The notes beneath the pieces were generated by a model. That model made no database searches. It saw only the letters and a program-made list of their open reading frames with translations, and was not told the DNA's origin. Position numbers and translations under genes: made by a program. A stretch of DNA of 64,000 nt. Source: Sulfuricurvum sp. Its GTDB lineage: Bacteria; Campylobacterota; Campylobacteria; Campylobacterales; Sulfurimonadaceae. The stretch is from contig NZ_JAUYFF010000001.1 in assembly GCF_030691015.1 (NCBI RefSeq), positions 186,001-250,000 on the forward strand, written 5' to 3'. Shown here in pieces: positions 6,401 to 63,568 of this stretch (position 1 is its first letter; the number at the start of each line of letters is the position of its first letter).

Positions 6401-7619
6401 GGACAATCCACCCGATCAGTGATGTTGCGGCGATAAGAGACGCCGGAGCGTACGGATCGCCGCTCAGTTTCTCCAGCGAAGTCATCAAAACGGGGGTTAA
6501 TCCCCCGACAATCCCTGCCGCACTTCCCAAAATAACCGCCGTAAACGATGCACGATACCCATGGTACTTTAACGCCATGACGGTGGAAGCAAAAATCGGT
6601 GCTTGAAATGCACACAAGAAGATGACCATAACGATCGTCCCCGCTAACGATGCCCAGTACCCGCCGATGCTCATCCCTACCATCAGCGGATAAATCCCTA
6701 TCGCAAGTCCTAACGCCGCGATCCGCATCACCCGAAATGAACCTACTTTATCGGCAACCATTGCCATCAAGGGGATAAAAATGACCCCGACGATAATGGA
6801 CAGGGTATTGATCTGCCCCGCTTCTGCCTTACTGAGTCCCGCACTTCCCTGAAGCCAGATAGGAAGATATACAAATACGGTATAGTAAAAAATCCAAATT
6901 GCCGATGCAACGCTCAAAAATCGCCAAAATTCAGCGCGATGATGACGTAAAATTGCCACAATAGGGACGGTTTTATCTTCACTCGGCTGATACTCATCGG
7001 TTAGATTACGGCGCAGATACAATCCTGCCGCCGCAATTATGATACTAACCCAAAACGGGATTCTCCATCCCCACTCCCCCATTGCATCTTCACCTAAATA
7101 CCATAGCAACGCGCCGCACAATCCTGAGCCTAGAGCCATCCCGATCTTTGCCCCGACAGAGACAAAAGAGCCGTAAAGATTTTGGCGATTAGGGGAGGAT
7201 TGCTCAACCAGATAGACAATAGAGCTGGCGTATTCACCCCCGACAGAGAGCCCCTGAATCATCCGAAGAGCGACAAGGAGAATCGGAGCCAATATTCCGA
7301 TTTGTGCATAAGTAGGCAAAAAACCGATCAAAAATGTGGGAAGTGCCATAAGCGCAAGCGAACTCATCAACGCAAAACGCCGACCGATCCGATCGCCGAT
7401 ATGACCGAAAACAAGTGCCCCTACGGGACGCATAATCATCCCTGCGGCAAAAGCTCCGAAAGAGCCTAATAATGAGAGAAAAGGATCGTGTGATGGGAAA
7501 AACAGATTCCCCATCATCACCGCTAAAAAACCGATGAGTGCAAAATCATAATACTCGATAACATTACCGATAATCCCAGCCGCTACAATTTTTTGCTTCG
7601 GCGTTATCAAATAATCCAC
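6381..7619 (-). CDS. MFS transporter, metabolite:H+ symporter type
   Basis: 412 residues with about twelve membrane helices. The motif after helix 2, G-H-I-G-D-R-I-G-R-R, is the classic MFS loop signature. The start (G-N-V-I-E-Y-Y-D-F-A-L-I-G) and Q-G-L-S-V-G-G-E-Y are typical of the metabolite:H+ symporter subfamily that includes ProP, KgtP and ShiA. The substrate cannot be read; an organic acid or compatible solute is likely. The reading frame opens with GTG at 7619 inside the end of mnmA, with no strong ribosome site, so a TTG three codons later is an alternative. It is the last gene of the long minus-strand unit. Confidence 0.88.
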   Translation of the reverse strand: MDYLITPKQKIVAAGIIGNVIEYYDFALIGFLAVMMGNLFFPSHDPFLSLLGSFGAFAAGMIMRPVGALVFGHIGDRIGRRFALMSSLALMALPTFLIGFLPTYAQIGILAPILLVALRMIQGLSVGGEYASSIVYLVEQSSPNRQNLYGSFVSVGAKIGMALGSGLCGALLWYLGEDAMGEWGWRIPFWVSIIIAAAGLYLRRNLTDEYQPSEDKTVPIVAILRHHRAEFWRFLSVASAIWIFYYTVFVYLPIWLQGSAGLSKAEAGQINTLSIIVGVIFIPLMAMVADKVGSFRVMRIAALGLAIGIYPLMVGMSIGGYWASLAGTIVMVIFLCAFQAPIFASTVMALKYHGYRASFTAVILGSAAGIVGGLTPVLMTSLEKLSGDPYAPASLIAATSLIGWIVLRRVPA

Positions 7620-32360: not shown

Positions 32361-32798
32361 TTAAGGTTGAATATAAAATGCGCCCTCTGTGGCGCGCTCG
32401 ATCACTTCCGCAATCCCTGCACTCACGACCTCGACATCAGGCGTTAGCTGATCGGGGGTGATTTTTTTGGTCTCCATCGTATTGCCGCAGGCGACAAATT
32501 CGACACCGTATTGCTGGAGGGCCCGTACACGCAAGGCAATCTCTTTTTCACTTTTGAGCACTGTTCGGATGCCGTGATAATAAGCGACAATCCGTAAATG
32601 AATCTTCTCCGGACCGTAGAATTTGAGGAGATTGTTCGCCGTACTGAGGCCATGGTGAATCGATTCATCATCACCATGACTGATCCCCATTACTACTTCA
32701 CGCGGCTTATCGATAGAGGGTTCAGGCTGTGCGAAACGGATATCCCCAAAAGCTAGAGTAGAGAATACGAAAACTAAAAACACTAATTGTTTCATCAT
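32361..32798 (-). CDS. Exported DsrE/DsrF-like protein with single conserved cysteine
   Basis: 145 residues from the ATG at 32798, which makes a TAATG overlap with the preceding metallohydrolase gene. Residues 1-17 are a signal peptide. The mature part is a DsrE-like alpha/beta fold, with H-G-D-D-E near the start and one cysteine, C104, in V-E-F-V-A-C-G-N-T-M. DsrE/TusD proteins carry sulfur as persulfide on such a cysteine, but normally in the cytoplasm. Its place four genes after soxB suggests a periplasmic sulfur-handling role (inference). A paralogue at 61850 has the same V-E-F-x-x-C-x-x-x-M pattern. Confidence 0.82.
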   Translation of the reverse strand: MMKQLVFLVFVFSTLAFGDIRFAQPEPSIDKPREVVMGISHGDDESIHHGLSTANNLLKFYGPEKIHLRIVAYYHGIRTVLKSEKEIALRVRALQQYGVEFVACGNTMETKKITPDQLTPDVEVVSAGIAEVIERATEGAFYIQP

Positions 32799-33706
32799 TA
32801 TTCCCACTCGAGTACTCGATACGAAGCTTCGACGTTATGGCGATGCGTACCCTCATAGAGTTTGTATTTTTTATAACCGTCCATCGTTACTTTTTTGAGG
32901 GTATCATCAATGCTAAGACCCTCAGCAATTGCGGCACGAATCTCGTTACGCATCTGCGTGAAATAGTCTCTCGTCATCGCAGCCGCATCTTTATCGGTGC
33001 GGTTTCCATGTCCTCCGACCACGTGTTTGGCTTTTAAAGTATCAAGCTCATCAAGTGCCAAGAGCCACCCGTTAATATCTCCCCCTCGGACGGAAGGGAG
33101 ACGGTCGTTAAAAACCAAATCAGCGGCAATAAGTACTTCCGATTTCGACACATACACGACCATATCTTTTGCCGTATGGGCTTTATGTTTAGCAATTTTA
33201 AGCTCAAGTTTTTGGTTACCGATGTTCAACGTTGTATCACTACTGATCATCTCAGTCGGCAATGTGGGCTTCGTCTTAGCATACGCTTCGCCAGAGATAT
33301 AGGTTTGCATTCGGGTAGGCTCGCTCATATCAGCACTCACCTTGAAATCATCGGATCCTAACACACGAATTCCCTGCTCGGTAAAATAGTTGTTGCCCAG
33401 CCAGTGATCATCATGGATATGGGTGTTGATAACGAGTTTAACGGGGAGGGATTTTATTTTTTGCATTGCATTGTAGGCCGATTGGGCATACGCATAAGAG
33501 GGACCGGTGTCGACGACAACGTATCCCTCTCCCGCATCGATATAACAGCTGTTGACGATATTTCCGTTGTTGGTTTTATCCATAATCTCGGGTTTCCCAA
33601 AAAAACAGTGGACGTCCGAGGTGACACGTACCGGTTTAAGGGCGTAATCATACGCACTCAAACTCGTTACTGCTAGCAATAAAGTTCCCAACAACGCTCT
33701 CATCAT
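32798..33706 (-). CDS. SoxH-like exported metallo-beta-lactamase-fold hydrolase
   Basis: 302 residues with a signal peptide (about 1-18). The MBL zinc motif is T-H-I-H-D-D-H-W-L-G-N near residue 95, with further ligands in K-A-H-T-A-K-D-M, A-D-L-V-F-N-D and G-G-H-G-N-R. Similar secreted MBL proteins are called SoxH or quinoprotein-relay metallohydrolases and lie in sox clusters, where SoxH is not strictly essential for thiosulfate oxidation. Starts eight bases after the porin stop. Reaction unknown; thiol-ester or sulfur-adduct hydrolysis is a guess. Confidence 0.83.
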   Translation of the reverse strand: MMRALLGTLLLAVTSLSAYDYALKPVRVTSDVHCFFGKPEIMDKTNNGNIVNSCYIDAGEGYVVVDTGPSYAYAQSAYNAMQKIKSLPVKLVINTHIHDDHWLGNNYFTEQGIRVLGSDDFKVSADMSEPTRMQTYISGEAYAKTKPTLPTEMISSDTTLNIGNQKLELKIAKHKAHTAKDMVVYVSKSEVLIAADLVFNDRLPSVRGGDINGWLLALDELDTLKAKHVVGGHGNRTDKDAAAMTRDYFTQMRNEIRAAIAEGLSIDDTLKKVTMDGYKKYKLYEGTHRHNVEASYRVLEWE

Positions 33707-33713
33707 TTAGCCT

Positions 33714-35261
33714 TTAAAAGAGGTAGTTAATTTCGAAACGATACTCGTTATATGATTCACCATCAACAACTAAAGTTGGACTTGTTTTTGTAGAAGCTTC
33801 TGCATCAATTGCCGCAAAACGGAATTTAAATTCCATATTTGGAAGTGTTTTAAACGTTTGAATCAAATCTAAATGTATGATCGAACGATCACTTAAATCA
33901 GATGCCACTGCCAACATTTTTTTATCATCAAAATCCATATCAGCATACGATAATGCACCGATAAGTCCCGGAACAACTCCCGCTTTATCGAAATTATAAT
34001 CGGCTTTTACCATCCATGATTGAGTATTAGCAATCCAGTTTAACTGTGCCATATCACGAGTATATCCACCCGTCGGGAATCCGCGCCACGGAGCAATAAT
34101 ATCTGCTTTATCGGCAACATCAGAATATCCTGCCATCAATGATAAAGGACCATTAGCCAATACTAAACGCCCCATCCAAATATTCCCATCTACACTTGAA
34201 GGGTTAGTATACGAATTACGTGCAGTAAGATTTCCGCCATTAGCATTTGTAGCTACTTTTCCATTTAACGAAGCACCTCCGATCTTACCTGCACCATCAT
34301 CCATTTGTCCAAGATAACGGATACCCGGAGTCAATGTCCAACCATTGCCCACAGCAATTTGATAATTGGCTTCTGCAACCACTGTTGAAAAATATCCATC
34401 AATACCAACATATTCTGCATCGAGTTTCAAATTAGGAATTGATTTATTCTCAACTATAGCCAATACCATCTCAGGATTCGCATCTTCATTCAATGCACGA
34501 ATATTTTTAACACTCAACCCTTTGTGAACACCTGAATCATCATTCTGATAAATTTTGTCCACTTTACTTGATCCACTTGTACCGCTATCATACGCCAAAA
34601 TACTGTGAAAAGTTTGGTGGTCACGAAGTTTTTGGCTCATTACATATCCGGCACGAATTGTTGTACTCGGAATATCTTTATTCTCAACCATTGCTGCTTC
34701 AAAGGTATTTGGAACCATTTTCGTATCATTTGTTGCGAGCATAATACTGTCTATGCCTTGGCGACCTACTTTTAGATTGGTTTTACCCGCTTTGTACTCA
34801 CCATACGCTTCCGCAAATACGCCGATCCCGCTTTCTTTTCCATCAATACTCGTACGATAGGCATCTTTACCTGCTTTACCTGAGTTACTCGTTGTTCCTG
34901 GAACAAGATTTTCATTTGATATAGGTGTTGTACCGTAAAAACCGACAGTAGCCCCTAAACCGTTATAAAAACCGGTTTTATAGACTAAACTTCCACCGAT
35001 GCCCCATACATTATTATCAGCCGTACCGCCAGCAACATGGTATTCATTTTCCCAATCCCACCAGAACATATTGGATCGCATACGTCCGTAAACTTCACCC
35101 TCGGTAAACATCTCACCGATAGAGTTTACCGCACCCGGTGCTTTTAGATATTCAATTTGACCGTTTGCTTTGAGGTTACGATCTTCCGTTTTAAGCGCAT
35201 GCGCCGACGTTGCTAACAAACATGTAGCTGCTGCTACGATACTGAGATTGACTAATTTCAT
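33714..35261 (-). CDS. Outer-membrane porin, Campylobacterota Opr family
   Basis: 515 residues. Signal peptide 1-22 (A-T-S-A-H-A). The mature part has alternating beta-strands and ends in N-Y-L-F, the aromatic C-terminus needed for BAM recognition. Motifs such as K-V-G-R-Q-G-I-D and M-V-P-N-T-F-E-A are shared with the second porin at 62312. Probably a diffusion channel for anions or other small solutes. It follows soxB after a hairpin terminator and has no clear promoter of its own, so expression likely depends on read-through from sox. Confidence 0.88.
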   Translation of the reverse strand: MKLVNLSIVAAATCLLATSAHALKTEDRNLKANGQIEYLKAPGAVNSIGEMFTEGEVYGRMRSNMFWWDWENEYHVAGGTADNNVWGIGGSLVYKTGFYNGLGATVGFYGTTPISNENLVPGTTSNSGKAGKDAYRTSIDGKESGIGVFAEAYGEYKAGKTNLKVGRQGIDSIMLATNDTKMVPNTFEAAMVENKDIPSTTIRAGYVMSQKLRDHQTFHSILAYDSGTSGSSKVDKIYQNDDSGVHKGLSVKNIRALNEDANPEMVLAIVENKSIPNLKLDAEYVGIDGYFSTVVAEANYQIAVGNGWTLTPGIRYLGQMDDGAGKIGGASLNGKVATNANGGNLTARNSYTNPSSVDGNIWMGRLVLANGPLSLMAGYSDVADKADIIAPWRGFPTGGYTRDMAQLNWIANTQSWMVKADYNFDKAGVVPGLIGALSYADMDFDDKKMLAVASDLSDRSIIHLDLIQTFKTLPNMEFKFRFAAIDAEASTKTSPTLVVDGESYNEYRFEINYLF

Positions 35262-35290: not shown

Positions 35291-35312
35291 AAAAAGGTGC
35301 TTAGCACCCTTT
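35291..35312 (-). terminator. Intrinsic terminator overlapping the soxB stop codon
   Basis: On the minus strand GGTGC-TAA-GCACC forms a hairpin (35308-35296) followed by TTTTT. The TAA loop is the soxB stop codon. A competing perfect 10-base pairing exists: AAAAAGGTGC, starting about 14 bases upstream, with the same GCACCTTTTT. This would give a loop of 13 bases. Either structure plus the T-run should cause partial termination between soxB and the porin gene. Confidence 0.7.
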
Positions 35313-37067
35313 CGCACCTTTTTTGGGACATCCGCAGTCATAATCCATCAAACGGACATTACTGTTACCGCTGATGTTGACGTTTTTCTGACGGCGAATA
35401 TAGGCTGACGTTACGTCATAGACAGGACGTGTCAAAGAGTCTTTTAGGTTGCTTCCCGCATTTTGCAGGTTGCCGCCCCATGAAGAGACTTTATACACTT
35501 TAGTATCATTGAGAGGCTTGCCGCCTACCATGATATTCGTGATACGTTTACCGCTGGCAGCACCGACACGGATTTCGTATGTGACTCCGCCCAGACGGCT
35601 CATATCGCCCCCTTGCTGATAAAGCGGGTTGGCGTTAAATACGTTATCGGCGATATCTTCGAGCAACGTACGGATATGAAGACCACTTAGTTCGAATGTA
35701 TACACATTCGGATAAGTGATCGCCGTCATATCATAGACATCGTCCATCGTGATTTTATCACCGGCGAGAACCGTAGTTCCCCATCGGTATCCCGGAGTAA
35801 ACGAGATGTCCGAATCCATCGCATCGATGATCGAATCGTTGATCAGCTGATCGAATGTCGAGTGGAACGTGTCGCGTTTAAACAACGTCGATTTCGTAAT
35901 CCCCAACACTTCGGAGAGTTCGGAATCATACGGCGAATACAACTCTTTGACTAGCGCTTCACCCTCAGGATCAGCCGGAATCAGGTTAGAGGCTACGGGA
36001 ATCAGTTTGTACTCATACCCTTTAACCTTATGGTTTTGGATATCGATATCCAAACGCCCTACGTATTTACCGTGACTTCCCGCGATTACAATGACCGTAC
36101 CGTTGATGACGGTCGGACGAGGCGACGGATCGTGCGTGTGTCCGCTGAGGATAAAATCGATCCCTTTGACTTGACGGGCAACCTCTTGGTCAACGCTGAA
36201 ACCATCGTGAGAGAGGACTACGACGCAGTCCACTTTTTCCTCTTTACGAAGTTTATCCACATACGTTTGAAGAGTATCTAAACGTAGGCCAAAACTCCAC
36301 CCTTGGGTAAATTCTTTCGGATTCGCCGTAGAGGTGAACGGAAACGATTGGCCGATAATACCGATCTTCGCTCCGCCGCGCTCCATAACAGTATAGGGTT
36401 CAAAAATCAATTCTTCAAAATCATCGGCAAAGGAATCATCTCCGACGACGTTTTGAGAAACAAATTTCGCATTCAACATCTCGATCAGTTCTTTGACCCG
36501 TGTTTTACCGTAGGTAAACTCCCAGTGTCCGACCATGACGTCGACACCGAGATAGTTTTGCGCTTTTACGATCGCTTCACCTTTGGTTTTCAATGCAACA
36601 CCGGTACCTTGCCACGTATCACCTGAATCGAGGAGCATCACATTGTCGGCACCGCGCTCTTTTTTGATATGGTTGATGAGGGTTTTCATGTGTGAAATCC
36701 CCCCCATTTTTCCAAACTTAGAGGCTAATGCGTCAAAATTCATAAACGTATCGAAATAAGCATCCAGAGTTTTACCCTGCATCCCATAATGTTTCAAAAA
36801 CGATTCGCCGCATAAAAATCCCGGTGTTCCGGTGAGGTTCGGCGCTGATATAAGTGTCGAAGGCTCTCTCCAATACAGCGGTTTGATATGAGCATGCATA
36901 TCGCAGATATGCAACAATGTTACATTTCCCTTCGCGTTAAATCCATAAATATCTTTGAGGCTAACCTCATCAGCACGTTTAGGTGTTGATGCCGCTGATG
37001 AAAGAGTCGGAACCCCTATTCCCAGTGCCGCAGCAATATGGAAAAAATCTCTTCGTGATAAATCCAT
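35301..37067 (-). CDS. soxB: Thiosulfohydrolase SoxB
   Basis: 588 residues. Tat signal S-R-R-D-F-F at residue 4, then a dinuclear-manganese metallophosphatase-like core: C-D-M-H-A-H (about 55), D-S-G-D-T-W-Q-G-T-G, G-H-W-E-F-T-Y-G, L-S-H-D-G-F and S-G-H-T-H-D-P. SoxB hydrolyses the sulfonate from SoxY-bound S-thiosulfonate to release sulfate in the periplasm. The C-terminus is unusual, Y-D-C-G-C-P-K-K-G-A-K-G-C, three cysteines in the last dozen residues. Follows soxA by ten bases. Terminator overlaps its stop. Confidence 0.97.
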   Translation of the reverse strand: MDLSRRDFFHIAAALGIGVPTLSSAASTPKRADEVSLKDIYGFNAKGNVTLLHICDMHAHIKPLYWREPSTLISAPNLTGTPGFLCGESFLKHYGMQGKTLDAYFDTFMNFDALASKFGKMGGISHMKTLINHIKKERGADNVMLLDSGDTWQGTGVALKTKGEAIVKAQNYLGVDVMVGHWEFTYGKTRVKELIEMLNAKFVSQNVVGDDSFADDFEELIFEPYTVMERGGAKIGIIGQSFPFTSTANPKEFTQGWSFGLRLDTLQTYVDKLRKEEKVDCVVVLSHDGFSVDQEVARQVKGIDFILSGHTHDPSPRPTVINGTVIVIAGSHGKYVGRLDIDIQNHKVKGYEYKLIPVASNLIPADPEGEALVKELYSPYDSELSEVLGITKSTLFKRDTFHSTFDQLINDSIIDAMDSDISFTPGYRWGTTVLAGDKITMDDVYDMTAITYPNVYTFELSGLHIRTLLEDIADNVFNANPLYQQGGDMSRLGGVTYEIRVGAASGKRITNIMVGGKPLNDTKVYKVSSWGGNLQNAGSNLKDSLTRPVYDVTSAYIRRQKNVNISGNSNVRLMDYDCGCPKKGAKGC

Positions 37068-37077
37068 AATCTAATCC

Positions 37078-37851
37078 TTAACGTTTCACGCTAGGAACAC
37101 TGATATTGTTCCCTTTGGTTTTGTTCGTAACATATACTTCCAATGCTACGATCTCTTTCGAGCCAAGTGGAATCTCAGCTAAAAGGGCATTTTTCATACA
37201 TTGTTGCATACGTTTGTCCAATGTTACCATTTGACTCTGGGTCATACGATACGCCGGCCATGTTCCCGCAGCTGCCGTCTCTTTAGCCCCTAAATCAGGC
37301 AACGGCTGCATACGTAGACGCTGACCGACAATATCGGCACTGTGACAGTTGTTACAGGAAAGTCCGCGACCGCCGCGACGCTCTTCAAACACTTGTTGTC
37401 CGAGTTTCATCATCTCAACCATGTGCTTATTTGCTTTAACATCAATATTGGTTTTTTGTCCGTTTGCAATTGATTTCACATACGCAGACATTTTAACCAT
37501 CTCTTTACTCTCAAGCTTAGGAACCGCTTTTTCATTTGCCGCAGCAGCCATTTGGATACTCTGTGCCAACGTCACTACTTTTTTAGCACTCTCGAGGTAG
37601 CGAGGAAATCCTGCAATAGTTTTAGGAAGGTCTTTCTCTTTAACACCTAACATTTTTGCATAATTTGCCGTTCCGACAAGTTCGCCGAAAAGCTGTTCAC
37701 CCTCGGATACTTCCATCTCTGCGGGATTATTATCCAAAAGCTCCGCGTACATCGCTTTATCCGCATCGGACATGCTGAGTTTTTCTTCAGCGTTAGCCGT
37801 TCCCAATAGTGCTAAACACACCAATGCAGCCGTGATTGATAGGGTACGCAT
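37078..37851 (-). CDS. soxA: SoxA, single-haem c-type cytochrome subunit of SoxAX
   Basis: 257 residues with a signal peptide (1-21). One haem site only, C-N-N-C-H at 166-170. C218 in R-M-Q-Q-C is a candidate for the axial (persulfurated) cysteine ligand conserved in SoxA. The N-terminal haem site of dihaem SoxA (as in Rhodovulum) is absent. SoxAX couples thiosulfate oxidatively to the SoxY cysteine. Three-base gap after soxZ. Confidence 0.95.
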   Translation of the reverse strand: MRTLSITAALVCLALLGTANAEEKLSMSDADKAMYAELLDNNPAEMEVSEGEQLFGELVGTANYAKMLGVKEKDLPKTIAGFPRYLESAKKVVTLAQSIQMAAAANEKAVPKLESKEMVKMSAYVKSIANGQKTNIDVKANKHMVEMMKLGQQVFEERRGGRGLSCNNCHSADIVGQRLRMQPLPDLGAKETAAAGTWPAYRMTQSQMVTLDKRMQQCMKNALLAEIPLGSKEIVALEVYVTNKTKGNNISVPSVKR

Positions 37852-37854
37852 AGT

Positions 37855-38181
37855 TTATCCTTTTGGAGTGATTTGTGTCGTACTCTCGACGCTTTGGCCC
37901 TTGTTATCTTTTGCAATAACTTTGAGTGTCCCTGCACCCGGCACTTTAAAACTGATAGACATAAGCGGGTTAACTGAGAGGGATTCCCAAATAACCATTT
38001 TTGTAATCAAAGTGTCGTTAAACATAAACTTAACTTCATCAATGTATTCAGCCGGAATCAATGCTCCCGTGTCTTTGTTTTTACGCATACCGGTTTCCAT
38101 CGGGTGCATCGCCATAAAATCGATTTTTACAACATCGCCTGCTTTGTAATCTTTCGGTTTGATTTTAATCAGTGTTTTCAT
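37855..38181 (-). CDS. soxZ: SoxZ, partner of the SoxY carrier
   Basis: 108 residues, an immunoglobulin-like fold without cysteine or signal peptide. It forms the SoxYZ heterodimer and is co-exported with SoxY through the Tat signal of the latter. Recognised by I-K-P-K-D-Y-K-A-G-D-V-V-K, the M-A-M-H-P-M-E-T-G segment and the G-A-G-T-L-K-V-I-A-K-D core. Separated from soxY by 50 bases with a small hairpin at the soxY stop. Confidence 0.95.
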   Translation of the reverse strand: MKTLIKIKPKDYKAGDVVKIDFMAMHPMETGMRKNKDTGALIPAEYIDEVKFMFNDTLITKMVIWESLSVNPLMSISFKVPGAGTLKVIAKDNKGQSVESTTQITPKG

Positions 38182-38216: not shown

Positions 38217-38240
38217 TAGAGTTGATTAAAATCAACCACA
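38217..38240 (-). promoter_or_regulatory. Small hairpin at the soxY stop codon
   Basis: GTTGAT (38236-38231 on minus) pairs with ATCAAC (38226-38221) around a four-base TTTA loop. The soxY stop TGA lies in the 5' arm. No T-run follows, so it is not a terminator. It may stabilise or mark a processing point between soxY and soxZ. Function is inferred. Confidence 0.35.
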
Positions 38241-38702
38241 TCCGCCGATCGTTACTTTTACGTTTTGTTTTGCACTAAGGAAAGTTCCGTCACTCATCTC
38301 TGCAATAGCAACGACATCTTGGGTTCCACCTAATTTGATACGCGTTCCGAAAAATGCTTCACCGTTTGCCGGTGTCAAATAGATATTCGCACAACGAACG
38401 TTTCCGTTTTTCGATGCAAGTACATGGATGGCTTTTACATACTCTTTTGATGTCATTGGGCTATCAACGGTTACTTTAACCGGTACAACCGCACCGTTTT
38501 CCGCAATTTCAGGAGCTTCCATTTTGACTTTAGCCGAAGCGATCACTGCTTTACCGCCGGTAATTGCCGCTACTGCCGTCTCAAAATTCATCTCATTCGG
38601 GCCGCCCGATTTTTTCTCTTCTGCCGCACTTGCTACATGAGGCAATGCAATCGCACATGCTGCCGCTGCTCCAAAACCTTTTAAAAATGATCTTCGTTCC
38701 AT
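38232..38702 (-). CDS. soxY: SoxY, thiosulfate-carrier protein
   Basis: 156 residues. Tat signal E-R-R-S-F-L-K at the start, cleavage near residue 26. The C-terminus ends I-G-G-C-G, with C155 as the sulfur-substrate attachment cysteine. The canonical ending is G-G-C-G-G, so one glycine is missing here. SoxY carries pathway intermediates on the swinging C-terminal arm. Second gene of the soxXYZAB cluster. Confidence 0.95.
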   Translation of the reverse strand: MERRSFLKGFGAAAACAIALPHVASAAEEKKSGGPNEMNFETAVAAITGGKAVIASAKVKMEAPEIAENGAVVPVKVTVDSPMTSKEYVKAIHVLASKNGNVRCANIYLTPANGEAFFGTRIKLGGTQDVVAIAEMSDGTFLSAKQNVKVTIGGCG

Positions 38703-38720: not shown

Positions 38721-39242
38721 TTATTTTTTAACTGCTGTGATATACGATACCAAATCGCACACTTCACGCTCGTTCATAAGGCCGTTAGCCAAATTAACCG
38801 TCATGGCCGATTTTGGGTTATCGAAACGCGGGTCTGCGATTTTTTGGTACATAAACTGAGGATTACGTACGCCGCTATCCATGTAAAGTTCTTTGTACTT
38901 ACTCAAATCAGGGCCGATATTACCGTACCCTTTGGCACCTTCGATGTTGTGACAGGCAACACAGTTACCCATTTGTTTCTCTTTTCCATCAGGAAGGAGT
39001 CTGGTAAGCCCCTCCGGCGGATTCTCTTTTGCATCTTTTCCGTTTAGGTTATGGAAGATATAGCTTCCACGGGCAATCGCTTTAGGGTCAGTACTGACAC
39101 ACCCCTCTGGCATAACATACGCTTTAGCTGCAGGCAAGGCATCTTTTTTCAAAATAGCCGTCGCATCCGGGGTTTCAATTACCTGCGATAAATCGGCTGC
39201 ACTTAAAAAAGTAGCAAGTCCGAGCATAATCACTTTTCGCAT
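38721..39242 (-). CDS. soxX: SoxX, c-type cytochrome subunit of SoxAX
   Basis: 173 residues with a signal peptide (1-15). Haem motif C-V-A-C-H at 94-98; the methionine in K-S-A-M-T-V-N is the likely distal ligand. Extra cysteines C48 and C157 could form a disulfide. First gene of the sox cluster. AGGAG stands upstream of the ATG, and a -10 box with two 11-base direct repeats lies further upstream. Confidence 0.94.
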   Translation of the reverse strand: MRKVIMLGLATFLSAADLSQVIETPDATAILKKDALPAAKAYVMPEGCVSTDPKAIARGSYIFHNLNGKDAKENPPEGLTRLLPDGKEKQMGNCVACHNIEGAKGYGNIGPDLSKYKELYMDSGVRNPQFMYQKIADPRFDNPKSAMTVNLANGLMNEREVCDLVSYITAVKK

Positions 39243-39273
39243 TGGCTCTCCTAATTTCTATATTTCAAGGAGC

Positions 39274-39305
39274 ATTGTAAGGTAGGAATGTAAAATTAAT
39301 GTAAA
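39274..39305 (-). promoter_or_regulatory. soxX promoter with two tandem 11-base direct repeats
   Basis: On the minus strand TACAAT (39279-39274) is the -10 box. Upstream are two abutting 11-base units, TTTACATTAAT (39305-39295) and TTTACATTCCT (39294-39284), differing in two positions. They cover the place of a -35 box, which is absent. Tandem 11-base repeats are the usual binding form of OmpR/PhoB-type regulators. The OmpR-type regulator gene at 40474 is directly upstream. The link between them is inference. Confidence 0.6.
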
Positions 39306-39317
39306 AAAAGTAAAAAT

Positions 39318-40484
39318 TTACCCGTTAATATAAAGGGGGGGGAAGAAAGTATAGGTAAAGGTGCTTCCTTCTCCGTAAATAGAGTCTATTTGAAGTTCGA
39401 TACCCGCTTTGTCCACAATCGATTTGACGATATTCAGACCTATCCCGAATCCGCCCTTGTCACGATTTTCACGGTAATACCGCTCGAAAATACGATTGAT
39501 ATCCTCAATCCCGACTCCGTTGTCACGAAATCGGATTACACACTTCGTTTCAAAACGCTCCAAAATGACTTCGATTTTTCCCTCTTCATGCGAATATTTG
39601 ATCGCATTGGAAATATTATTGTCAATAATGCGCTGCAACTGTGTGGGATTAAAGACAATGGCAACCCCTTTGTCGATGTGCGGAATAAGGGTAATATTTT
39701 TGAGTGCGGCAACTTCGGAAAAGTAATCAATCCTCTCTTGCAAATAGTGACTTAAATCGATCGTTTCATATTCAAATGCCAAACGCTCGTTTTTTATAAG
39801 ATAATCCATATCATTGTAAAGGGTTGCGAGTGTTTTGGTAGCTGCTTTGATCCGCTGCAGATATTTATTCGTAGGATTGGCGCGATTATACAGATCAATA
39901 TTCACATTAATGATAGAGAGCGGTGTGTTAATCTCATGCATCGAATCTTTTATAAACTGATCCAGACGCTGATTAATTCTCTGAAACGGTAAAGCAAACC
40001 TATCCAGAAAAAACAGAGATAGAACAAAGATCAATGCAGTAATGGAGAGCAAAATAACCACAACATCTTGATAAATTCGGGCGTACGAGATATTCCCCCC
40101 AACCACCAGATAGGATGCTCCGAAATAACGCCCCTCAGGAAGAGCTATAACCAGATACGCATAAGAATCTTGGATATGGTACCCTGTTTTTTGAACACCA
40201 AGGGGTGATTGAATGACACTAAAGAGAGGGTTAAAATGGACATCATAAAGCCCAGATTGAAACGAGCGGAATCTCGGATACTCAAACGGCTTATTCTCAT
40301 TGGAGTCAAACTCTTCCATCGTACGGATAATCAAATGGGACTGCCGCTTGAGTTTAAACTCATACTGAATTTCGTGAACATACTTCATATAAGTGACATA
40401 CAGATAGGTCGGTAGCAACAGCAGCACTGCGACCAGCATTGTGTAGAGAAATGCATTTTTAAGTGCGTAGCGATTATCGTTCAA
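39318..40484 (-). CDS. Sensor histidine kinase of the sox-adjacent two-component system
   Basis: 388 residues. Membrane helices at about 12-31 and 145-168 enclose a short periplasmic domain of some 110 residues. No HAMP signature is obvious. H-box M-H-E-I-N-T-P-L near residue 194, N-box N-N-I-S-N-A-I-K-Y, G-boxes R-D-N-G-V-G-I and G-G-F-G-I-G-L. A complete kinase. Its gene overlaps the regulator gene by 11 bases and ends 75 bases before soxX, suggesting control of sulfur oxidation. Confidence 0.93.
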   Translation of the reverse strand: MNDNRYALKNAFLYTMLVAVLLLLPTYLYVTYMKYVHEIQYEFKLKRQSHLIIRTMEEFDSNENKPFEYPRFRSFQSGLYDVHFNPLFSVIQSPLGVQKTGYHIQDSYAYLVIALPEGRYFGASYLVVGGNISYARIYQDVVVILLSITALIFVLSLFFLDRFALPFQRINQRLDQFIKDSMHEINTPLSIINVNIDLYNRANPTNKYLQRIKAATKTLATLYNDMDYLIKNERLAFEYETIDLSHYLQERIDYFSEVAALKNITLIPHIDKGVAIVFNPTQLQRIIDNNISNAIKYSHEEGKIEVILERFETKCVIRFRDNGVGIEDINRIFERYYRENRDKGGFGIGLNIVKSIVDKAGIELQIDSIYGEGSTFTYTFFPPLYING

Positions 40485-41127
40485 TGATGTATCCCAGCCC
40501 GCGACGGTTTTGTATGATCTCTAGAGGAAGTTTTTTACGAAGATTATTGATTTGAACCCGTATATTAGCCGGATCGACATATTCCCCCCAAATCTCATCT
40601 TGGAACATCTCCACCGAGACGACTTGATTCGTATGCTTGAGTAATACGGTAAAAATCTCTTTTTCCGTTTTACTGAGGGCAATATTATGATCGTTGTGCA
40701 TCAAGGTGAAGTTTTCGGTATCGTAAATCAACCCTTCGCCGAAATCGATTCGGTTTTCCCCCTCATGATAGAAACTTTTCATGGCATGCATAATCCGTAT
40801 CTGCAATTCGGTCAGATCAAACGGTTTGCGGATATAGTCACAGCACCCCGACTTATACCCCTCTTGTAAATCAGACACGTTGACCATAGAAGTAAGAAAA
40901 ATGGCAGGTGTTTTATTTCCCTCTTTACGCAGTGTCCGAAGTAACTCAAATCCGTTCATCCCCGGAACATTCACATCGAGAAGATAGAGATCGAAGTGGG
41001 TTTCATATACCGCATCAAAGGCTCTCTCCCCATTGCTAAATCCAAAAACTTCAAATCCCAACTCTTCCAAAAATTCGGTGATACTGACACGCAGCATGTA
41101 TTCATCTTCGAGTAATAGTACTTTCAT
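40474..41127 (-). CDS. OmpR-type response regulator of the sox-adjacent two-component system
   Basis: 217 residues. Receiver: E7/D8/E9, phosphoacceptor D51 in L-L-D-V-N-V-P, T80 and the lysine in R-K-P-F. The C-terminal winged helix (about 125-217) has S-K-T-E-K-E-I-F-T-V-L-L and N-R-R-G-L-G-Y. It should bind tandem direct repeats such as those before soxX. Overlaps the Cache gene by four bases and the kinase by 11. Confidence 0.94.
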   Translation of the reverse strand: MKVLLLEDEYMLRVSITEFLEELGFEVFGFSNGERAFDAVYETHFDLYLLDVNVPGMNGFELLRTLRKEGNKTPAIFLTSMVNVSDLQEGYKSGCCDYIRKPFDLTELQIRIMHAMKSFYHEGENRIDFGEGLIYDTENFTLMHNDHNIALSKTEKEIFTVLLKHTNQVVSVEMFQDEIWGEYVDPANIRVQINNLRKKLPLEIIQNRRGLGYIIER

Positions 41128-61757: not shown

Positions 61758-61812
61758 CCGATTTGAGGATTAAGTTTATTCAGGCTTTTTCGTTATTTTT
61801 ACACTCTTACTC

Positions 61813-61841
61813 TATAATCCTTTATAATTTGACCAAAAGGA
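61813..61841 (+). promoter_or_regulatory. Tandem -10 boxes and RBS for the second DsrE-like gene
   Basis: TATAAT occurs at 61813-61818 and again at 61823-61828 on the plus strand. AAAAGGA (61835-61841) follows, eight bases before the ATG at 61850. No -35 box is clear. Confidence 0.5.
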
Positions 61842-61849
61842 CTGCCAAG

Positions 61850-62311
61850 ATGAAAAAATTATTATTTCTCCTCGTACTCTGCGGAGTATTATTCGCAGAA
61901 GAAGGGGTTAAAAAAGTCGTTTTCGATCTCACCAGCGGAAAACTCGAAGCGATTGAGAAAAAGGTATTGAGCGGTATCGCTTTTAATAAAACCCATTATG
62001 AGAATCAACTCGAAAAACTCGATGTCGCCGTCGTGATTCACGGTGATGCTTATAAATTTTTCATCAAAGATCTCAAAAACTCCCCTTATAAAAATGACGC
62101 AAATCTTCTTAAAGCACACGACCAGCTCGGCAAACGGCTCATCGCTATGGCAAAAAACTACGATGTGGAATTTATCATGTGCGAATCAGGGATGAAATCT
62201 CTGAAAATCGACAAAAACACCCTCTATGATTTTGTGAAACTCACCCCGAGTTCTACGATCGGGTTGATCGATAAACAAAACGACCATTTTGCCTATGTGC
62301 CGATTCACTAA
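61850..62311 (+). CDS. Second exported DsrE-like protein with single conserved cysteine
   Basis: 153 residues from the ATG at 61850, which has AAGGA eight bases upstream and opens directly with a signal peptide (L-L-F-L-L-V-L-C-G-V-L-F-A). An earlier in-frame ATG would lie before the promoter boxes. The mature part is DsrE-like, with V-V-I-H-G-D-A and a single cysteine, C111, in V-E-F-I-M-C-E-S-G-M-K-S-L-K-I, aligning with C104 of the protein at 32361. Probable periplasmic thiol or sulfur carrier (inference). The porin gene follows with no gap. Confidence 0.82.
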   Translation: MKKLLFLLVLCGVLFAEEGVKKVVFDLTSGKLEAIEKKVLSGIAFNKTHYENQLEKLDVAVVIHGDAYKFFIKDLKNSPYKNDANLLKAHDQLGKRLIAMAKNYDVEFIMCESGMKSLKIDKNTLYDFVKLTPSSTIGLIDKQNDHFAYVPIH

Positions 62312-63568
62312 ATGAGCATCCGACTCAATACTATCATTCTACTCATTGGGAGCATTGCGCTCAATACTTCAGCTTTAGCTCAAAGTCTTGAAGAGATGTT
62401 TAGCAAAGGGAAAATGAATGCTCAGCTTCGCGCATTCTGGTACGACGGCGACCGTGAGCTACGGATCGACCGAACCGCCCTCACACTCGGAGGGATTTTG
62501 AGCTATAAAACAGCCCCTTACGAAGGGTTCAGCGGAGGCGTTTCGTTCTTTTCGAGTAACGGAGTTACCTCGCTGACACAGATGCCCGAATCGGGGCAAA
62601 CCCATAACCTCAACCCTAATGGCAGTTCCATCAACACTCTTGGCGAAGCCTACCTCCAATACAGTGGATATGATACCGTTGTGAAATACGGACGCCAGCG
62701 TCTCGACCTCCCCCTCTCAAACGACTACTACAACCGGATGCTCCCCAACAGTTTCGAAGCACTCAGTTGTGAGAATCGTTCCATCGACCATGTCACCCTC
62801 AAAGGTGCTTATATCACGGGGTGGAAATACAAAGGCTCCGATACCTTCGTCTCACCCACCTACTCGCTCGGGATTGACCGTGACATCGCCGTCCTGGGAG
62901 CGATCTATTCTCCGGCATCACCATGGAAAATCGAACTCTTCGACACCTATGTCCATGATGTGATGAACGCCCCTTATCTGCAAATCATCGACAATGCTAT
63001 TTGGAAATCGTCCGATGGGACAACCTTTTCGGGAGCATTACAATATCTGAGCGAACAGAGTATCGGAGACAATGCCGCAGGAGAAGTCGATACCTATCTG
63101 CTAGGGCTACGAGGAACTCTAACGAAGGGTGAGTGGAGTCTGAGCGCTCTATACACCCGTATCGGCGATCAGAGCTTGCTAGGGACAGGCGGACGGTATG
63201 AGAAGATGGGGTGGGGAGCCTTTATCACCTACACCGATCTGCAAATCGACGGAGAGAGTGAAAACGCAGGTGCGGAAGCGTACGGAGGAGTCCTCACCTA
63301 TCGCCCTGATTCGACGTTCGAGATTTCGGCCAAATATATGCGGATCGATCAAAGCGACGCTATCCAATCCAACCCCGCATCGCTCACCCAAAATCCCCGC
63401 CCCGATTCGGACGAGGTCAATATCGATGCGACCTATCAGCCGCGTAAAGAATTTCGTTTGCGAACCCGTTTAGCACGTATCAATTATGAGCGTGACAGCA
63501 CGTCACTCTATCAGAACAAAGCATACGATGAGACTAATGTGAGAATTATTGCCGATTATATGTTTTAA
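62312..63568 (+). CDS. Second outer-membrane porin, Campylobacterota Opr family
   Basis: 418 residues. Signal peptide about 1-23 (S-A-L-A-Q). Beta-strand-rich mature part ending A-D-Y-M-F. Shares K-Y-G-R-Q-R-L-D, M-L-P-N-S-F-E-A and the D-G-D or D-W-E loop near the N-terminus with the porin at 33714, but is about 100 residues shorter. Channel for small solutes, specificity unknown. Starts on the base after the DsrE-like stop, so the two are surely co-expressed. Confidence 0.87.
   Translation: MSIRLNTIILLIGSIALNTSALAQSLEEMFSKGKMNAQLRAFWYDGDRELRIDRTALTLGGILSYKTAPYEGFSGGVSFFSSNGVTSLTQMPESGQTHNLNPNGSSINTLGEAYLQYSGYDTVVKYGRQRLDLPLSNDYYNRMLPNSFEALSCENRSIDHVTLKGAYITGWKYKGSDTFVSPTYSLGIDRDIAVLGAIYSPASPWKIELFDTYVHDVMNAPYLQIIDNAIWKSSDGTTFSGALQYLSEQSIGDNAAGEVDTYLLGLRGTLTKGEWSLSALYTRIGDQSLLGTGGRYEKMGWGAFITYTDLQIDGESENAGAEAYGGVLTYRPDSTFEISAKYMRIDQSDAIQSNPASLTQNPRPDSDEVNIDATYQPRKEFRLRTRLARINYERDSTSLYQNKAYDETNVRIIADYMF

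Follow-up and report, generated by a model that had tools for sequence, protein, structure and literature searches.

The three genes ahead of soxXYZAB

The window analyzed here is a 64,000-nucleotide stretch of a Sulfuricurvum genome, and its reverse strand carries soxXYZAB followed by genes for an OprD-like porin and a metallo-beta-lactamase-fold hydrolase (Table 1). An earlier note on this DNA had described a two-component system directly upstream of the sox genes. The Pfam domains of the regulator and the kinase support that description, but the system is a trio rather than a pair; the first gene, encoding a dCache_3 sensor protein, had been overlooked. In Sulfuricurvum the trio lies directly after flhB, with a 4-base overlap in the window, and this position suggests that the sensor is expressed as a housekeeping gene.

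Table 1 Features of the locus and of the candidate second target (positions in the window)
Feature	Position	Strand	Evidence and remarks
dCache_3 sensor protein, 376 aa	41124..42254	-	Pfam dCache_3 5e-12; gene 1 of trio, conserved
OmpR/PhoB-type response regulator, 217 aa	40474..41127	-	Pfam Response_reg 2.6e-25, Trans_reg_C 1.3e-13
Sensor histidine kinase, 388 aa	39318..40484	-	Pfam HisKA 3.2e-7, HATPase_c 2.2e-22
Candidate tandem 11-bp operator, soxX promoter	39284-39305	-	Kept in 95/98 soxX upstream regions of trio genomes
soxX -10 hexamer TACAAT	39274-39279	-	TA and T columns conserved among relatives
soxX	38721..39242	-	TIGR04485 1.4e-23, above cut-off
soxY	38232..38702	-	TIGR04488 2.1e-49, above cut-off
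soxZ	37855..38181	-	TIGR04490 3.7e-31, above cut-off
soxA	37078..37851	-	TIGR04484 4.6e-64, above cut-off
soxB	35301..37067	-	TIGR04486 9.9e-246, above cut-off
OprD-like porin, downstream of soxB	33714..35261	-	Pfam OprD 3.3e-15; position conserved
Metallo-beta-lactamase-fold hydrolase, SoxH-like relative	32798..33706	-	Pfam Lactamase_B 8.4e-19; TIGR04559 1.7e-63, below cut-off
Second candidate operator TTTTTCG-N4-TTTTACA	61786..61803	+	Relatives keep it ahead of their DsrE homologs
DsrE-like protein gene, candidate second target	61850..62311	+	Pfam DsrE 2.5e-11

The dCache_3 protein consists of one N-terminal membrane helix and a double Cache domain and contains neither a kinase nor an output domain. 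Modeled by AlphaFold (pLDDT 79), it resembles periplasmic double-Cache sensor domains such as that of DctB; the fold match points to no ligand, and a search of PDB sequences with the dCache_3 profile gave no useful match. Three residues, R122, W124 and R137, are invariant in 54 homologs. The gene overlaps that of the regulator by 4 bp, and this overlap together with the constant linkage of the genes suggests that the protein may partner the trio kinase. The kinase has a small periplasmic domain, modeled as a small beta domain flanked by two long helices, and an H-box reading HEINTPL in which H183 is invariant.

The receiver and winged-helix Trans_reg_C domains of the regulator exceed the curated Pfam cut-offs, the gene of a cognate HisKA/HATPase_c kinase adjoins its own, and a candidate tandem direct-repeat operator with a step of about 11 bp lies near the target promoter, all as in the OmpR/PhoB family. 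Against the NCBIfam equivalog model for PhoB itself it scores 107.5 bits, far below the cut-off of 296.2. Alignment places its recognition helix at PANIRVQINNLRKK.

Tandem repeats at the soxX promoter

A gap of 75 bases (39243-39317, from the sequence and a check of the open reading frames) separates the kinase gene from soxX on the same strand. It holds two abutting 11-base units, TTTACATTCCT (39284-39294) and TTTACATTAAT (39295-39305), identical at 9 of 11 positions, and four bases separate the proximal unit from the TACAAT -10 hexamer; no -35 hexamer was found 16-18 bp from this -10. The earlier note had given the gap, the units and the -35-less promoter, and our re-measurement reproduced each of them exactly. 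The better-conserved core is TTTTACA, at 39300-39306 and again at 39289-39295, with a step of 11 bp and 9 bases from the proximal copy to the -10. A TTTACA-N5-TTTACA pair without mismatch occurs once in the window, and exact TTTTACA-NNAA-TTTTACA matches once in the 2.33-Mb genome; when two mismatches to the extended pattern were allowed, matches in this genome showed no excess over a reversed-pattern control. We considered a third in-register repeat upstream and rejected it, since the TTTTTAC at about 39309-39316 is set off from its neighbor by 9 bp instead of 11 and is unconserved. There is no terminator between the kinase gene and soxX, and read-through transcription into sox is therefore possible.

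The repeats are kept with the trio and decay without it

Nearly all sox-bearing Sulfuricurvum, most members of the family and representatives of at least six further families of the order share the gene order dCache_3, regulator, kinase, soxXYZAB, and the porin and metallo-beta-lactamase-fold genes often come next. Among 299 sampled genomes of the order, 54 of the 56 that have this type of soxB carry a strong kinase homolog, versus 17 of the 243 that lack it; in the regions examined, these 17 are mostly paralogous trios. Eight family members that lack soxB lack the kinase too. The arrangement recurs in most of the sulfur-oxidizing Campylobacterota examined.

Aligning 101 soxX upstream regions gave the motif TTTTAC(A/G)-N4-TTTTACA, followed after about 9-10 bases by a TA-N3-T hexamer, with the ACA of each half-site almost invariant. 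A motif score of at least 12 out of 14 was reached in 95 of 98 regions from trio genomes, one of which (L122) was counted after the motif had been located beyond an insertion of about 270 bases. The full score of 14 was reached in 62 of the 98 versus none of 2020 dinucleotide shuffles, while 51 of the 2020 shuffles reach 12. The half-sites are degraded in three trio genomes (L083, L127 and L240); in L083, where the sox cluster is inverted, the motif at soxX is weak but present. The insertion just mentioned, in genome G344 (L122 oriented 6480-6770), has inverted ends and lies between the soxX promoter and soxX.

We also considered whether the repeats are a leftover of the 3' end of the kinase gene, and rejected this because they stay with soxX after the kinase has moved. 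The motif remains at soxX where the kinase lies 1-3 kb away (L076, L096, L129, L135 and L143) and where a different contig carries the trio (G379, G418 and G419), and the repeats are intact or nearly so in four relatives with an unlinked trio.

Three genomes carry soxXYZAB without the sox kinase, namely the sisters G340 and G351 and the 81% complete G369; in each, the best match to the kinase is a remote paralog. The repeats are decayed in all three: the half-sites of G340 and G351 read TTTTAGG and TTTTATA, and no recognizable repeat was seen upstream of soxX in G369. The earlier note had proposed checking whether, among related genomes, the repeats are confined to those with this regulator, and this is the pattern obtained, with 95 of 98 trio genomes keeping them and 3 of 3 trio-less genomes having lost them (Fisher p=1.2e-4, uncorrected for relatedness and with only two independent losses, as G340 and G351 count as one). 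In G340 and G351 the -10 has become a perfect TATAAT, as would be expected after loss of an activator.

A probable small regulon beyond sox

A wide regulon was rejected, since the strict pattern matches soxX alone in this genome. Control of the second sox cluster (soxCDYZ) was likewise rejected: the repeats are absent from the soxCDYZ-type loci examined, where the sole match (G080) lies ahead of a SoxX-like gene. A second candidate operator, located only by way of relatives, precedes a DsrE-like gene in the window, with a TATAAT (61813-61818) 9 bases after it. The repeat pair is present in all 9 genomes of one paralog group of this gene, and the operator at the homolog of the window's own DsrE gene scores at least 12 out of 14 in most close relatives. 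A putative porin-like open reading frame (62312-63568) follows the DsrE-like gene.

In other Sulfuricurvum the repeat pair precedes the gene of a chemoreceptor with dCache_3, HAMP, MCP and CZB domains, in at least 8 of 17 readable promoters, and the sensor domain of this receptor aligns with the dCache_3 protein of the trio. No such repeat-preceded chemoreceptor gene is present in the genome studied here. Loci with the chemoreceptor under the same 11-bp repeats include L311:1153-3279(-), L301, L302, L313 and L317. The regulon is thus probably small, comprising soxX and the DsrE-like gene here and the chemoreceptor in some relatives. As for the earlier suggestion of a regulator dedicated to sox, the co-occurrence of repeats and trio supports the connection; at least one further promoter in the window, that of the DsrE-like gene, is probably controlled as well.

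Paralogous trios and their operators

Related trios adjoin other genes. One clade lies beside tetraheme cytochrome genes and has a recognition helix identical to that of the sox trio, R-V-Q-I/V-x-N-L-R-K-K; exact TTTTACA-type pairs with the 11-bp step stand upstream of the cytochrome gene, sometimes of two. Examples are L265-L269, L273-L275, L277, L087 and L088, where the cytochrome promoter carries these repeats. Porin-linked trios with the helix NARVQINNLRRK have TTTTCA-type pairs at 11 bp, and tsdA-linked trios with the helix DIRMCIKRVREK have GTTACA/GTTATA pairs at 11 bp, both being small sets compared by eye. Across these trios, the repeat sequence varies together with the recognition helix of the regulator. 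In the tree, the sox, cytochrome and porin trios form one clade, and the tsdA- and Phs-linked trios, the latter adjoining phsA-like genes, fall outside it. TsdA was assigned from its match (1e-45) to thiosulfate dehydrogenases of solved structure. In three loci of other families (L097, L100 and L284), a related trio directly follows the gene of a TsdA-type cytochrome.

A model for sox activation and its alternatives

From these comparative data we consider it highly likely that the trio is a dedicated Sox signaling system that activates soxXYZAB through the two TTTTACA half-sites. The dCache_3 protein, the periplasmic domain of the kinase, or both would read a periplasmic sulfur anion, most likely thiosulfate and possibly tetrathionate, and the kinase would phosphorylate the PhoB-like regulator. 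The latter would bind the two half-sites 11 bp apart as a head-to-tail dimer, cover the -35 region and bring RNA polymerase to the TACAAT -10, so that soxXYZAB, and probably the downstream porin and hydrolase genes too, are turned on.

Very probably the regulator binds at soxX and activates rather than represses it; activation is favored by the sharpened -10 in a lineage that lost the trio and by analogy to PhoB-type promoters and to PceP. A regulator that binds the repeats and mainly represses soxX by hindering RNA polymerase near the -35 until the signal arrives would suit a site that overlaps the -35 region, with 9 bases between it and the -10, and it predicts the same conservation. It does not predict the perfect TATAAT that accompanies trio loss in G340 and G351, which suggests compensation for a lost activator, albeit in one lineage only, and PceP of Sulfurospirillum, whose sites overlap the -35, was argued by its authors to be an activator (PMC7755780); we therefore regard repression as improbable. 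It is more improbable still that no regulator reads the repeats and that they belong to a general sigma-70 promoter of Campylobacterota, in which periodic T-rich tracts serve in place of a -35, because the ACA of the half-sites is nearly invariant, the exact pair occurs only once in the genome and is missing from the examined soxCDYZ-type loci, and the pair vanishes with the trio and varies with the recognition helix.

The weakest step of the activation model is the signal; the gene neighborhoods make thiosulfate or a related sulfur anion the probable one. The trio might instead sense a cue other than sulfur, such as redox state, oxygen or another electron donor, with sox as one output of a broader respiratory response. 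Paralogous trios beside tetraheme cytochromes and porins, and dCache_3 proteins of this type that have no assigned ligand, would agree with such a cue, but trios also adjoin sox, tsdA and phsA-like genes, and the regulon in this genome looks narrow; we see the broader response as a serious, if lesser, possibility. Returning to a sulfur-anion signal, we tentatively propose, at somewhat less than even chances, that a three-gene sensor family reads sulfur anions throughout Campylobacterota and was duplicated for sox, tsdA, a Phs-like reductase and cytochromes, its recognition helix and 11-bp operator changing together, and that a chemoreceptor sharing this sensor domain is under the control of the sox regulator as well in some Sulfuricurvum. 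If so, a single signal would lead cells with such a chemoreceptor both to produce the enzyme and to swim toward the substrate.

Comparison with known systems

The pho boxes of PhoB/PhoR and of Bacillus PhoP-type systems consist of two direct repeats 11 bp apart that replace the -35; the trio differs from these systems in its regulon. We found no regulator of sox in Campylobacterota in the openly accessible literature, in agreement with the earlier remark that such control is little described there; subscription papers could hold a prior description. A 2019 review of how respiration is regulated in the phylum names no regulator in its passages on sox.

Of known systems, TspS/TspR, RsrS/RsrR, ThsS/ThsR and PceS/PceP come closest. 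TspS/TspR of Acidithiobacillus caldus, for which thiosulfate was proposed as the signal, likewise lies directly upstream of a soxXYZA-B cluster (sox-II), but TspR depends on sigma-54 and has a palindromic site upstream, whereas the regulator here has receiver and winged helix only, without the AAA+ domain of sigma-54 activators in its Pfam profile, and a sigma-70-type tandem repeat (PMC6335251). RsrS/RsrR of the same species resembles the trio in being EnvZ/OmpR-like, in serving periplasmic sulfur metabolism and in its short repeated operator; it differs in controlling the tetrathionate pathway rather than sox, in its site and in that no dCache_3 gene has been described with it (PMC6335251). 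ThsS/ThsR of Shewanella halifaxensis, for which a response to thiosulfate was shown, also adjoins sulfur-anion genes; unlike the trio, with its Trans_reg_C winged helix, it has a FixJ-like regulator and an inverted-repeat operator and serves thiosulfate reduction (PMC5408782). PceS/PceP of Sulfurospirillum shares with the trio the phylum, an OmpR-family regulator and direct repeats with an 11-bp step overlapping the -35, on which gel shifts were done, but PceS is described as having seven transmembrane helices, against two long helices around a small beta domain in our kinase model, the repeats read CTATW rather than TTTTACA, and the system serves tetrachloroethene respiration (PMC7755780). 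An ArsR-type SoxR repressor of the sulfane-sulfur kind does not fit the locus either, where the adjacent regulator, the only one considered, is OmpR-type. All five of these systems thus differ from the trio in regulator class, operator or target.

Sox-dependent Campylobacterota such as Sulfurimonas, Sulfuricurvum and their relatives are major sulfur oxidizers at vents, in redoxclines and in groundwater, and the trio with its defined operator makes the switching-on of thiosulfate oxidation directly testable. It would offer a candidate sulfur-anion sensor that, unlike ThsSR, has an OmpR-type output, and the trios together form a natural set for following the co-evolution of regulator specificity and operator. 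In two genomes (G032 and G023; loci L093 and L094), a second copy of soxYZB adjoins a different regulator/kinase pair.
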